Below are positions 1-10,499 of a DNA stretch of 39,960 nt, in pieces. The notes beneath the pieces are model-generated. The model did not search any database. It saw only the letters and a program-made list of their open reading frames with translations, and had not been told where the DNA came from. A program made the position numbers and the translations under genes. Each line of letters opens with the position of its first letter. Positions within the stretch are counted from its first letter, which is position 1. The stretch is from Oscillatoriales cyanobacterium (GTDB lineage Bacteria; Cyanobacteriota; Cyanobacteriia; Cyanobacteriales; Microcoleaceae): assembly GCA_004292745.1 (NCBI GenBank), contig RDXH01000084.1, forward strand, positions 1 to 39,960, read 5' to 3'.

Positions 1-38
1 TTGAACCTAGTGATGACGACCAGCAAGAGGACGACTAG
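1..38 (+). CDS. Graspetide-type precursor peptide, copy 1 (3' end only)
   Basis: Only the last codons are in the window. Read from base 3, the frame gives EPSDDDQQEDD and a TAG stop. The nine residues after the proline are nearly identical to the end of the complete precursor at 202-426 (TDDDQQEDD), and the DNA of bases 12-38 is identical to 400-426. This is therefore a tandem paralogue with Ser in place of Thr at the putative ester donor position. Acidic C-terminal residues next to Thr/Ser are what ATP-grasp ligases of the microviridin/graspetide type crosslink. The N-terminus lies upstream of the window. Identification rests on the paralogue and the adjacent ligase gene. Confidence 0.7.
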   Translation, partial: EPSDDDQQEDD

Positions 39-83
39 AATTTTGAATTACTAAGAAATAATTCGATCGCCCTTTATGTTCTT

Positions 84-120
84 GAAAGACCTGTATTAAT
101 TTTTGCATAACAGGTCTTTC
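84..120 (+). terminator. 11-bp perfect hairpin downstream of precursor copy 1
   Basis: GAAAGACCTGT (84-94) and ACAGGTCTTTC (110-120) are perfect inverted repeats around a 15-base AT-rich loop. There is no long T tract, so it may be an attenuator or RNA-stability stem rather than a strong terminator. A decayed copy (473-483 with 499-509, one mismatch and one G-U) follows precursor copy 2, just before the ligase gene. Confidence 0.5.
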
Positions 121-201
121 ACTGTCAACATTATTTCAATTGGTTTGGTTGTGATACCAGTTTCAAAAAAATGTAAAACCATAACTCAAAAAAACTAACT
201 T

Positions 202-426
202 ATGACGACTACCCAACTCGCTCTTGACAAAAAAGCAAATCCTTTGATGATGCACCTCAGCATCTCGCCCAAGTACGGCATCTCCCAAGAGCAATCTAGC
301 TACGATCCCACCACCCAGACTTCCAACATCTCCTCCATGAGTGGCTCCTGGTGTGCTCGCAGTAGCTCCACTGGAGATCTTATTTTCAGACCTCCTACTG
401 ATGACGACCAGCAAGAGGACGACTAG
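202..426 (+). CDS. Graspetide-type (ATP-grasp-modified) precursor peptide, copy 2
   Basis: Encodes a 74-residue peptide 114 bp upstream of an ATP-grasp peptide ligase. It has a leader-like N-terminal part, a YDPTTQ motif at about residues 34-39 that resembles motifs I associate with ATP-grasp target RiPP precursors, a Ser/Thr-rich centre (residues 38-57) and a core-like C-terminus ending TDDDQQEDD (66-74). Thr66 or nearby Ser/Thr residues and the Asp/Glu cluster are candidate partners for omega-ester bonds, by analogy with microviridins. No PFFARFL-type microviridin leader motif is seen, so it is probably a different graspetide group. No clear Shine-Dalgarno precedes the ATG. The function (often protease inhibition in known graspetides) is not shown here. 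No peptidase or transporter gene lies nearby within the window. Confidence 0.7.
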   Translation: MTTTQLALDKKANPLMMHLSISPKYGISQEQSSYDPTTQTSNISSMSGSWCARSSSTGDLIFRPPTDDDQQEDD

Positions 427-539
427 ATTTTTGTCTGCTTAACCGATTATTTTTATCGCCCTTTATGTTCTTGAAATACTTGTATGAATTTTTGCATTAC
501 AGGTCTTTCACTGTCAACTTTATTTCAATGAATTTAGTT

Positions 540-1511
540 ATGACCGACCTTTTAATCGTGACTTCCGAGACAGACATTCATGCAGATGTCGTTATCAACG
601 AATTGCAAAAATCAAATATTCGAGCAATTAGATTAAATTCAGAAAGTTTTATTCAAAAAAGTCATTATTTTTATGAATGGCAAGCTTCTGGCAATCCCAG
701 TCAAAGTTTTTTGTCCTTTGAAGACTCCTTGAAAGAAGTTCAAGATATTGGCGTGATTTGGTGGCGAAAACCACAAGATTATCAAGTGTTTTCAGAAGTT
801 AATGATGCTTGGGCAATCAAGTATTGTCAAGAAGAAACAGAATCTTTGATGTATTCTCTTTCTGGACTCTATCCCAAAGCTAGATGGGTGAGCATCAACC
901 AAATCCCCATTGCTCACAAGCTGGGAATTACTATCCCTCCAACACTCGTCACCAATTCCTACGATGCTGCTTGCAACTTTGTGACACAACAGGGTAAGTG
1001 CATTGTTAAACCGATGCGCTACTCTGGATTCTTACATGATGACAAGCAGTACGCTTGCTACACTCGCCCCATTGATGTAGAAACACTCTTAGAATTTCAA
1101 GAAAGCATTCGATTAGCACCAGTTTTTATTCAAAAACGCATTCAAAAAAAAGCTGAATATCGAGTTACATTAATCGGCAAGCAAAGTTTTGTCTGTCGCA
1201 TTGATGCCAAACATACCAACGATTCAGATGTGACTTTGGATTGGCGCGTCACCGAACCGGATAAACTTGTTCATGTTCCCGACAAGCTACCAATGGATTA
1301 CCTCAACAAACTCCATCAAATGCTTGACGAGTTTGGTCTGAATTTTGGTGCATTCGACATCATTCGCGACGATGATGATACGCTCTATTTTATCGAACTC
1401 AATCCCAACGGACAGTGGTATTGGATCGAAATTCTCACTAAAATGCCTATGGTTCGCGCCATGGTGGAACTCATCGAATATTTAGCGCTGCAATATCAAC
1501 AGGATTGCTGA
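540..1511 (+). CDS. ATP-grasp peptide ligase, MvdC/MvdD-like (graspetide maturation)
   Basis: A 323-residue protein starting MTDLLIVTSETD, which matches the usual N-terminus and length of MvdC/MvdD/MdnB/MdnC-type RiPP ligases. The frame is open back to 465, but those codons lie in the duplicated hairpin flank, so ATG 540 (or 528) is preferred. ATP-grasp features include KCIVKPMRYSG for nucleotide binding (about residues 153-163), the strand VFIQKRIQKKAEYRV, and the metal-binding end FIELNPNGQWYWIE near residue 290. The family uses ATP to activate Asp/Glu side chains of a bound precursor and forms lactones with Thr/Ser or lactams with Lys. Only one ligase is visible, so ester-only crosslinking is likely but inferred. 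It is cytoplasmic and probably transcribed with the precursor upstream. Confidence 0.85.
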   Translation: MTDLLIVTSETDIHADVVINELQKSNIRAIRLNSESFIQKSHYFYEWQASGNPSQSFLSFEDSLKEVQDIGVIWWRKPQDYQVFSEVNDAWAIKYCQEETESLMYSLSGLYPKARWVSINQIPIAHKLGITIPPTLVTNSYDAACNFVTQQGKCIVKPMRYSGFLHDDKQYACYTRPIDVETLLEFQESIRLAPVFIQKRIQKKAEYRVTLIGKQSFVCRIDAKHTNDSDVTLDWRVTEPDKLVHVPDKLPMDYLNKLHQMLDEFGLNFGAFDIIRDDDDTLYFIELNPNGQWYWIEILTKMPMVRAMVELIEYLALQYQQDC

Positions 1512-1593
1512 ATTCGATCGCGAATTACACATTTTATTAGGATTGCTTCGTTCCTCCTATCGGACAAGGATTCAACGGGAGCATCCCGATTTT

Positions 1594-1668
1594 GTAGGGG
1601 CGAAGCATGACCGCAGATAAGTTATTGGTTAAAAGGAAAGATTTACTACGGTCATGCTTCGCCCCTAC
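1594..1668. repeat. Inverted repeat with 20-bp perfect arms overlapping the HD gene end
   Basis: Arm 1594-1613 (GTAGGGGCGAAGCATGACCG) is perfectly complementary to 1649-1668. The right arm contains the TAG stop (1665-1667) of the HD-domain gene on the minus strand. It resembles the mobile palindromes common in filamentous cyanobacteria and may also end transcription of both convergent genes. Confidence 0.8.
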
Positions 1669-2519
1669 CGATATTCCTCAGATATCACCTGAGAATGCTC
1701 CACCCGAAACACATTCGCGCTCAAATTAGCCACAACTTGTTTCCCCTGCTGCGTCAGTTCCAAATAGCCGATCGCATCTTTTACATACCGATGAACCACA
1801 TTCCAATAAAACTTAGAATACCCATCCCGTAAATCCCCCGGATTCCTATACCCCAAAACCTGATTCTGACCCGTTTCCTCAAACTCGTAAAACAACGCAG
1901 TAATCTTTTGCAAATATCGCGGATCGCTCAACTGACCAATTAAATCAGCCGCACGAACTAAACCCGGATAATTGACCGTATCTTGATAATCTTCCTCCGC
2001 TGGCACCGGGAAACGAGTTAGCTCAATATTACGCTTAACCAGCTCCGCATCAATCAGTTTATGACCGCCAAAACGCTCAGAAACAAACATTTTGCTGCGA
2101 TCGACATGATAGGGAGTCAAACTAGCATCCGTCGCACCCAGAGGCAGTTTTATTTTCCCATCACCCACCCCCGTCGCATACATCCTCAAATCAGTTTGAT
2201 CGAGACGGCAAACTCCCTTCACATACCCAATATCGTGACATAGCAAAGCTATGTGGAAATGCAGCCAATCTTCACAGGAAACACCCCCTTCACGAATGTG
2301 TTTGCCACGCATAATTTCCTGTCCCACCAAGGTCACTAAAATAGTATGTTCTACATTGTGGTAAAGAGCATCGCTATTGGCAATATTTTGCAAGGCCATA
2401 TCCGCTACCCAGCAAATAATCTCTCCATAGTCTGACTTGAAGCCACCGTAAGTGTGGCGGTATCCTTCAATCAGCCGATTTACGAAAGCTTTAATCAGTA
2501 ATTCTGTGGCATTAAACAT
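1665..2519 (-). CDS. HD-domain metal-dependent phosphohydrolase-like protein
   Basis: A protein of about 284 residues from ATG 2519, which is preceded on the minus strand by GGGAAG five bases upstream; the frame is open to 2540. The HD superfamily signature is present: HNVEH at about residues 54-58, then HIALLCHDIGY about 40 residues later, giving the paired His and His-Asp metal ligands. A later Asp (about 186) in LVRAADLIGQLSD fits the fourth ligand. HD proteins hydrolyse phosphate esters, often of nucleotides or signalling molecules; the substrate cannot be read from the sequence. It resembles a conserved cyanobacterial HD family with no assigned pathway. It is monocistronic and convergent with the ATP-grasp gene. 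Its stop codon lies inside an inverted-repeat arm, so the last residues may be repeat-derived. Confidence 0.8.
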   Translation of the reverse strand: MFNATELLIKAFVNRLIEGYRHTYGGFKSDYGEIICWVADMALQNIANSDALYHNVEHTILVTLVGQEIMRGKHIREGGVSCEDWLHFHIALLCHDIGYVKGVCRLDQTDLRMYATGVGDGKIKLPLGATDASLTPYHVDRSKMFVSERFGGHKLIDAELVKRNIELTRFPVPAEEDYQDTVNYPGLVRAADLIGQLSDPRYLQKITALFYEFEETGQNQVLGYRNPGDLRDGYSKFYWNVVHRYVKDAIGYLELTQQGKQVVANLSANVFRVEHSQVISEEYR

Positions 2520-3349
2520 ATTCACTTCCCTGCTCGACACTAGCGGTTTAAATATTTTTATCCTGGTTTTTTAGGGGCTGCTGTTTTAGGTGAATTTTTA
2601 GCTACTTTTTCCTCTCGATTCCCGTTCTTATCTACAAGTATCTACTAATAGATTATCAACGACGAAGGCTGAAATTAGCGATCGAACAACTAGCTACTCC
2701 AGGCGCACCCTAAATAATTGGCATCTATAGGCGATCGAGGTGTCAAACCCTTCAAGCACCACTAAGCCCTGACAATCAAGCTATTTCGTTAAAGAAAATC
2801 CCACATCTGACATCTAACATCCAAAATTGCTTGACTTCTTCCGCTGCGATCGCCCTAGGGCTGGGTATTTCACTCAACAGAACACATTAACAGTATAACT
2901 TGGTACAACTACTTAGCTAGGACTCGCGATCGAACATCTATTCAATCTAACTACTCTCCCACTGAATCCGCAAGTCTAGCGGGAAATAGCTAAATCTTGG
3001 TAAGGATTTTGAGAAAAAATACTTAGGGTCTAGTTATCACAAACCTCAGTAATTATGACTAATAATAACTCTACTTCATCATCCACTCAATCCGTATATT
3101 CTCAGGTGACGAGCATAAGTCTTTTTTGTGACAATTCCATTCTCAAGAGGCGATCGCCACACCTAATCTTTGTGATGGCAAACCAAAATCAATGTGATCT
3201 GTATCACTTTTAGCAACTATAACAGCATATATAATATAAAAAATAAAATAACAAATTAAGTGCATCTTTCCATAATTCCTGTCCGCTAAATTTTTCTTCG
3301 ATACATTATCTCCTCCACTTAATCATCTTCATAATCAAGGTTCTAGGCA
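2520..3349. other. Intergenic region, 830 bp, between divergent genes
   Basis: No convincing gene. It contains several CGATCG/GCGATCGCC motifs and a short open frame (3055-3213) that overlaps a CRP-type site and is not accepted. The 3' part is strongly AT-rich and carries the promoter elements described separately. Confidence 0.6.
3193..3235 (+). promoter_or_regulatory. CRP/SyCRP1-type site with -10 box upstream of the unknown gene at 3350
   Basis: TGTGATCTGTATCACT at 3193-3208 fits the CRP/SyCRP1 consensus TGTGA-N6-TCAC(A). A perfect -10 hexamer TATAAT lies at 3230-3235 and no good -35 is seen. With a start near 3242 the site would be centred at about -41.5, the classical class II activator position. 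This predicts cAMP-dependent activation and an RNA leader of about 108 nt. Site and spacing are seen directly; regulation is inferred. Confidence 0.6.
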
Positions 3350-9899: not shown

Positions 9900-10499
9900 A
9901 TGACGAGTGAATGCCTCCGGGTTGGTCAGGCGGCCCCAGACTTCGCAGCAACAGCCGTAGTGGATCAGGAATTCAAGACTGTTAAACTGTCTGACTATAA
10001 AGGCAAAAAATATGTAGTCCTGTTCTTTTACCCCTTGGACTTCACTTTTGTCTGCCCAACAGAGATTACAGCATTTAGCGATCGCTTTGAAGACTTCAAT
10101 AAACTCAATACCGAAATCCTCGGCGTATCAGTTGACAGCGAATTTTCTCACCTAGCTTGGATACAATCAGACCGCAAATCCGGCGGAGTTGGCGACCTCA
10201 ACTATCCTTTAGTGGCGGATATCAAAAAAACAATTAGTGCCGACTACAACGTCCTTGACCCAGAAGCAGGCATTGCCCTCAGAGGTCTGTTCATCATCGA
10301 CAAAGAAGGCATCATCCAACACTCCACTATCAACAACCTTGCCTTCGGCCGCAACGTGGACGAAACTCTCCGCACTCTGCAAGCTATTCAACACGTCCAG
10401 TCTCACCCCGATGAAGTTTGTCCCGCAGGCTGGCAGCCCGGTGACAAGACTATGACTCCCGATCCTGTTAAGTCTAAAGTCTTCTTTGCTGCTGTCTAA
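9900..10499 (+). CDS. Typical 2-Cys peroxiredoxin
   Basis: A 199-residue AhpC/Prx1-class peroxidase. The peroxidatic Cys lies in [13 protein letters not shown] (about residue 52) and the resolving Cys in [10 protein letters not shown] (about 174). The GGVG loop, typical of overoxidation-sensitive Prx, is at about 95-98; the C-terminal YF partner motif is instead FF (SKVFFAAV). It reduces hydrogen peroxide and alkyl hydroperoxides with thioredoxin as donor, in the cytosol. The ATG is preceded by AAGGAA, and an AT-rich TATGAT box lies about 50 bp upstream. It is separated from the tRNA by a terminator, so it has its own promoter. Downstream lie direct repeats and a second thioredoxin-fold gene. 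Confidence 0.92.

Follow-up and report, generated by a model that had tools for sequence, protein, structure and literature searches.

A probable TgmA/TgmB-like graspetide cassette with tandem precursors in an Oscillatoriales cyanobacterium, apparently impaired in this genome

What is made from two small acidic peptides that stand in tandem before a single ATP-grasp ligase, and is the locus that encodes them still sound? This question is raised by the first 1,511 bases of contig RDXH01000084.1 (here C93) of an Oscillatoriales cyanobacterium (GCA_004292745.1), whose assembly amounts to 5.9 Mb in 408 contigs. The window analysed is this contig from its base 1, at its full 39,960 bp. An initial annotation had proposed tandem graspetide precursors of a non-microviridin type. 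The comparisons presented here make it quite likely that this cyanobacterial locus is a TgmA/TgmB-like graspetide (omega-ester peptide) cassette with a ring-stapled product, and that it is impaired in this genome.

All features lie on the forward strand. At positions 1–38 stands the C-terminal end of precursor copy 1, EPSDDDQQEDD and a stop codon (last 11 codons 3–38, read from base 3), the remainder lying beyond the contig start, while copy 2 is complete (202–426, 74 aa), as given by its open reading frame (ORF) and its alignment with relatives. Direct repeats connect the two, with 95% identity between 6–45 and 394–433 (spacing 388) and 86% identity between 59–154 and 448–543 (spacing 389). 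The duplicated unit spans the precursor end and the downstream flank (second copy 448–543) and reaches 4 bases into the ligase gene, provided that this starts at the ATG at 540, which agrees with the duplication of about 389 bp described initially. The start at 540, and not at 465, is very likely the right one judging from the ORFs of genomes G008 and G018, which begin at MTDLL. In G001, a genome of the same genus, both copies are complete on a 115-kb contig (L014:9782-10000 and 10164-10388, with the ligase from 10501); its copy 1 ends in the same 11 residues, and its copy 2 is 97% identical to that of the window. This comparison establishes, at the level of sequence, that the tandem pair is real, and it was probably already present in the common ancestor of the two strains. 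An assembly chimera as the sole origin of the duplication is rejected because G001 carries both complete copies. The precursor ORF is not a product of chance, given that it has homologues in other genomes and that the whole pair precedes the orthologous ligase of G001. The search upstream of base 1 advised by the initial annotation succeeded in part: by alignment with G001, the last part of contig C149 corresponds to the region preceding copy 1 and breaks off 27 bp short of its start codon, and the first base of C93 falls 181 bp into the copy-1 ORF, leaving the first part of copy 1 in the gap between the contigs. Further precursor copies may lie in this gap. No second such locus was found in the genome at the thresholds used.

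The ligase (540–1,511, 323 aa) is a graspetide synthetase, as indicated by hidden Markov models, alignments and structure models. Its best NCBIfam match is TIGR04187 (TgmB; E 1.5e-56), with the MvdD and MvdC models at E ~4e-43; the earlier label MvdC/MvdD-like was imprecise in this respect. Sequence matches in the Protein Data Bank were MdnB, MdnC, CdnC, AMdnB and PruB, to which a profile added PsnB. For the intact G001 ligase, the AlphaFold model reaches a predicted local distance difference test (pLDDT) value of 94.1; it matches AMdnB with a Z-score of 31.4 and a root-mean-square deviation of 2.2 over 304 residues, followed by MdnC (30.9), CdnC and PruB (29.1 each), MdnB (28.2), PsnB (26.5) and RimK (22.1). 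Graspetide synthetases score 25.7–31.4 against this model, and 23.2–28.1 against that of the window ligase, for which RimK reaches 19.2. The ratio of nonsynonymous to synonymous substitution rates (dN/dS) is 0.07–0.14 in all 28 pairs of eight same-genus ligases, indicating purifying selection. The genome holds one ligase match at E <= 0.001. Close relatives on plasmids were looked for and none was found, the 25 plasmid records that match the ligase all being below 60% identity.

Full precursors were compared in a set of 13 from 12 loci, and motifs were scored in an alignment of 12 rows (A2). Ten related precursors from other genomes are 57–97% identical and an eleventh, more distant, 38%. Copy 2 carries the leader motif PLMMHL (241–258), present in 11 rows of the alignment and missing from the distant L021 row. 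It fits the motif Phhx(1,2)h, which PMC8939145 reports for ~50% of graspetide precursors. PFFARFL is absent from all 12 rows. The initial annotation had thus read the complete precursor correctly in finding YDPTTQ (301–318) and no PFFARFL; a general graspetide leader motif is nevertheless present. The form Y(D/N)Px(T/S)Q occurs in every row, and a related motif of the [YL]DPxTQ type was seen beside the ligase in 13 out of 24 loci, scanned with a loose pattern and judged by eye, its carriers being cyanobacteria, Alphaproteobacteria, another proteobacterium, a delta-proteobacterium, Streptomyces and Kitasatospora; with this pattern the other 11 loci yielded no precursor of the kind.

The predicted core S47–D74 (340–423) consists of a constant frame around a variable loop. 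S49, W50, S56, S/T57, D67, D69, E72, D73 and D74 are constant in all 13 precursors, while the loop between residues 57 and 67 has 3–10 residues and 12 distinct sequences. D68 is replaced by Ser in Phormidium willei and S47 by Ala in Chamaesiphon. Among the 12 loci that keep the peptide, the tail reads DDDQQEDD, DDDTQEDD, DDDSQEDD, DSDQQEDD or DDDSKEDD. A delta-proteobacterial small ORF (L111:4534-4776) with the similar core GSTWSRTGTTG...DPDEDKDD adjoins a ligase 30% identical to that of the window, which suggests that the core pattern may extend beyond cyanobacteria.

From this pattern a mechanism can be proposed by analogy. In graspetide biosynthesis, as described in PMC13097080, the ligase phosphorylates a carboxylate, which is then attacked by a Ser, Thr or Lys side chain. 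Here, one ATP-grasp ligase would bind the precursor via the PLMMHL leader and phosphorylate Asp/Glu side chains of the C-terminal DxDxxEDD tail, and the activated acids would close onto the hydroxyls of the SxSW(x5)S[S/T] segment, giving a multi-ring stem, hairpin-like in shape, whose variable loop could be the target-binding part. The inner closure would join S56/T57 to D67/D69 and the outer one S49 to E72–D74, around the loop; the 3-residue loop of G002 would need S56–D67 or T57–D69. The residues thus singled out (S49, S56 and S/T57 versus D67, D69, E72, D73 and D74) replace the earlier guess of a donor at residue 66, and the constant stem with its 12 natural loops constitutes a ready set of scaffolds. 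Leader removal and export are left unexplained by this scheme, given that none of the 13 precursors has a Gly-Gly site and that no third gene is common to all loci.

Similar layouts are known. In fuscimiditide, nested Thr-Asp esters make a stem and a loop, and macrocycles with fewer than four loop residues were not observed, according to PMC12291112; the constant-stem and variable-loop pattern suggests the same stem-loop layout here, with a pairing that would follow by analogy. The graspimiditides differ in having a methyltransferase gene, whereas no third gene of at least 90 aa is common to the 12 loci compared here (no search of the neighbours with methyltransferase models was made), and in their leader RPFG, as given in PMC13003496, in place of PLMMHL. 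Rosaritide, of group 21, also has a TIGR04187 ligase, and its Ser8, Ser9 and Thr11 are closed onto Asp22, Asp26 and Asp24 (PMC13097080), a hydroxyl cluster set against a DxDxD tail much like S56/T57 and D67xD69. Unlike the cassettes described here, which have no such gene in common, it depends on a partner protein of PpiC type, and its cluster includes a transporter gene. With microviridins (MvdC/MvdD) there is agreement in the synthetase fold, the G001 model reaching Z 28–31 with MdnC, MdnB and AMdnB, whereas PFFARFL, a Gly-Gly site, a second ligase and the microviridin core are all wanting, in line with the non-microviridin type proposed at the outset.

The closest known type is TgmA/TgmB (TIGR04186/TIGR04187, e.g., Streptomyces), which shares the best ligase match, the [YL]DPxTQ motif and the acidic C-terminal tail; the precursors of Streptomyces L064 and L108 and Kitasatospora L095 carry LDPTTQ or LDPLTQ. 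It differs in that the actinobacterial ligases are ~30% identical to that of the window, that cyanobacterial ligase and precursor fall below the curated cut-offs, and that the cyanobacterial cassette has a PLMMHLS leader, a core with the SW motif and a divergently transcribed gene with a helix-turn-helix (HTH)-like stretch. The TIGR04186 model at E <= 10 matches seven of the 12 members of alignment A2 (best E 0.0015) and not L040, L042 or L094, while the three actinobacterial precursors tested all pass. The locus thus represents a cyanobacterial variant of TgmA/TgmB-like graspetides with its own core pattern, a likely regulator and a candidate operator, and its best-preserved copies are found elsewhere. 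None of the titles or beginnings of abstracts among the matches listed for the motif and model names, graspetides, cyanobacterial graspetides, and Microcoleus with microviridin describes this cassette; its precursors may already be predicted members in the supplementary tables of graspetide surveys such as that of Lee et al. 2020, with its 12 groups.

Between precursor and ligase stands a hairpin. The one 3' of copy 1, TGAAAGACCTGT...ACAGGTCTTTCA (83–121), has z -4.49 versus 200 shuffles, supported by pair counts, and z is <= -2.79 in 15 of the 16 stretches analysed; the sixteenth is the hairpin between copy 2 and the window ligase (472–510), weakened to -1.28. In the alignable subset of 13 hairpins, 98.5% of the cells are paired, and one of 500 shuffles attains the observed covariation score. 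The placement of ESFC-1 in alignment A8 is imperfect. At the same location, hairpins of dissimilar sequence occur in Chamaesiphon, G093 and G119. Positions 1–3000 of the window gave no Rfam match at the gathering score. The hairpin would probably raise the expression of the precursor over that of the ligase. Attenuation is a guess, because a simple scan for intrinsic terminators does not flag these hairpins and they have no clear T run.

Gene neighbourhoods were compared at 12 loci outside the window (six of the same genus, G234, Phormidium willei, G093, G119, Chamaesiphon and ESFC-1) using ORFs of at least 90 aa within ~5–6 kb where the sequence extends. Only the ligase and the divergent HTH-like gene are common to all 12, with no third gene and hence no shared transporter, so that the transporter or protease which the initial annotation had thought worth seeking did not emerge as a constant neighbour. 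The order of divergent HTH-like gene, promoter, precursor, hairpin and ligase is kept in every one of them, across five cyanobacterial lineages. The HTH-like gene encodes 159–173 aa and starts ~140–220 bp upstream of the precursor; the ORF of Chamaesiphon has 231 aa and reaches the contig end. No Pfam model matches the protein above its cut-off, and the weak matches fall on the C-terminal HTH-like stretch. The genome under study has 18 matches to it, which makes related genes frequent, but the location beside the cassette is constant.

In the promoters of the same genus, CGACT recurs every 10 bp, at about -90, -80 and -70 relative to the precursor, the middle repeat being CGACC in some. Elsewhere, exact repeats number two in Phormidium, G234 and ESFC-1, three in G093, one in G119 and none in Chamaesiphon. 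Chains of three similar 5-mers (one mismatch) with a period of 10 occur at 11 of 13 loci, compared with 0–2 for any other period between 7 and 14 and with a mean of 0.28 and a maximum of 2 in shuffled controls. In the strain of the window, the exact three-fold repeat is found at C149:23882-23906, just upstream of copy 1. Through these direct repeats with their 10-bp spacing, the HTH-like gene probably exerts control over the cassette; it would act as its switch, with the hairpin probably setting precursor above ligase expression. This pair of a likely cognate regulator and a candidate operator could also serve to switch the product on. Upstream of the paralogous HTH-like genes L113 and L116 there are repeats with the same 10-bp spacing and different letters, and L114 and L117 lack them (no shuffle control was made for these four); the start of L115 was not found. 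This suggests that some members of the family may bind 10-bp-spaced arrays, and that regulators with co-diverging operators are possible.

The copy in the window differs from its relatives in ways that point to damage, the first of which lies beyond what the initial annotation had seen. The ligase lacks 11 residues through an in-frame deletion of 33 bp at ~890–894 (junction ARWV-S-INQ, 888–896), where the 41 other aligned ligases are all ungapped. Within the deleted block, one position is K or R in 40 of the 41 and a second one P or Y in 39. The residue directly preceding the block is N in 37 of the 41 and S in the window ligase and in four others. In the G001 model this region forms a helix (120–127; block means 92–94) which is absent from the window model, where pLDDT falls to 67 at residues 111–120 and the predicted template modelling score is 0.82 versus 0.90 for G001; this dip is no more than suggestive, because stability is not something that AlphaFold measures. 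On C149, the HTH-like gene has 145 aa compared with 164 in G001, and its end falls within a repeat for which the genome shows 42 matches. With a shortened ligase, a short HTH-like gene and a weak hairpin, the cassette is probably impaired in this genome. It is possible, but on balance doubtful, that it is fully active and that the deletion only shortens a linker and may alter ring specificity: the reading frame is open, residues invariant among the 42 ligases are retained, and the dN/dS of the window ligase (~0.1) is no higher than elsewhere. The deletion may be of recent origin, may be tolerated or may be an error of assembly. Against full activity stand the well-kept positions and the predicted helix in the deleted block, the replaced N, the lack of any gap in the other ligases, and the concurrent changes in HTH-like gene and hairpin. 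The identification of intact orthologues is of practical value, the copy in the window being ill suited to expression.

The preferred reading, of a TgmA/TgmB-like graspetide cassette, has likewise to be weighed against other uses of the same genes. The ligase would very probably not be a RimK-like amino-acid ligase or tagging enzyme with the acidic peptide as an uncyclised carrier or regulator. A weak match to the RimK family model (E 0.00091), the RimK Z-score of 22.1, and the absence of Gly-Gly sites and of a common third gene such as a transporter are compatible with this role, whereas the listed solved graspetide synthetases all outscore RimK, the leader fits the graspetide motif, and the variable loop is flanked by constant hydroxyl and acid residues. 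Highly improbable is the proposal that both precursors are active and that the ring donor is the Ser or Thr preceding DDD, so that this organism would make one product closed by Ser and one closed by Thr, alike in the rest of their topology. Two copies do exist, with Ser at residue 66 in one and Thr in the other. Among the 13 full precursors, however, this residue is S in four, T in two, N in four, C in one, P in one and E in one, i.e., a hydroxyl in only six; the G001 copies also differ throughout the loop, and the window ligase carries its private deletion. Two products, as the initial annotation had supposed, are thus plausible because of the loops and not by virtue of the donor it had named.

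Several observations count against the graspetide reading or parts of it. All NCBIfam matches of the window ligase are below the curated cut-offs; that of TIGR04187 is 350 bits, with 191.9 bits for the window ligase and 210.5 bits for the intact one of G001, and the window precursor reaches 13.8 bits versus a cut-off of 25 for TIGR04186 (TgmA). A homologous ligase without the acidic peptide, which had been named initially as evidence against the proposal, is found in G003/UBA11344 and ESFC-1: there, beside intact ligases, the precursors keep the leader and lack the acidic tail (L020:4119-4307 in G003 and L051:4674-4871 in ESFC-1), while 12 loci keep the peptide. These tail-less precursors look like decaying genes, or the ligase may have another substrate there. 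As for the hairpin, only two pairs are changed on both sides, a number reached by 48 of 500 shuffles. Seven of the 13 promoters come from one genus and are hence not independent, and the triple repeat occurs once in the genome (<= 1 mismatch) just as a backwards control pattern does, which makes its uniqueness alone a weak argument.

A more far-reaching interpretation, which is rather improbable, would make these loci a distinct graspetide group: a self-contained cassette for a hairpin-shaped ester peptide with a free loop, under a dedicated HTH-like switch on 10-bp-spaced repeats, in which a STAND sensor of the kind seen in G006 could deploy the peptide. The peptide might then act inside the cell, given that no transporter gene is common to all loci. 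The HTH-like homologue of G006 has 459 aa and includes an NB-ARC (STAND) ATPase domain, for which reason a sensor-type deployment as in cyanobacterial conflict systems is possible. A search with defence models gave no match at E <= 0.001 for the HTH-like gene or the ligase, and one weak match for the STAND protein of G006; in PMC7159879, on conflict systems of multicellular prokaryotes, the terms 'ATP-grasp' and 'RiPP' are absent from the main text as accessible. Two distant cassettes, L021:8553-11576 (G006) and L094:2551-4508 (Oscillatoria HE19RPO), have an HTH-like homologue beside a YDPETQTSN precursor and a ligase.

The precursor adjoins the ligase in 12 loci, namely seven of the genus of the window, G234, Phormidium willei, Limnothrix/G093, G119 and Chamaesiphon. 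A precursor match was obtained in nine of 59 genomes searched (the own genome included), one of them weak (G006), and a ligase match at E <= 1e-30 in seven of 388 genomes drawn from the class (again including the own one); among these seven, the gene of G019 is broken and the ligase of G331 is 28% identical and belongs to a different type of locus. Loss of the cassette is also seen within the genus: G019 and Microcoleus FACHB-61 have a partial HTH-like gene and ligase and no precursor match, and in Microcoleus EPA2 a ligase fragment remains. The set of ligase homologues comprised 79 loci, with small ORFs inspected in 19 and in 24 of them (overlapping sets, with few Streptomyces loci); in L038, L043 and L044 too little of the contig precedes the ligase to tell whether a precursor is present. 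The ligase at L038:97-1143 (Microcoleus MP8IB2.171) has an internal insertion of 14 residues near its N-terminus that resembles a local duplication. In G331, L027:1150-3564 is a graspetide-like locus with a small ORF of Gly-Gly type, the 28% identical ligase and, as judged by eye, a PpiC-type isomerase-like protein, which recalls the group-21 rosaritide system.

A palindromic repeat resembling a miniature inverted-repeat transposable element, with 23-nt arms and 42 matches in the genome, has one copy just after the ligase, at 1594–1668 of the window. A second copy lies at G000:C149:23271-23345, where the divergent HTH-like gene stops early.

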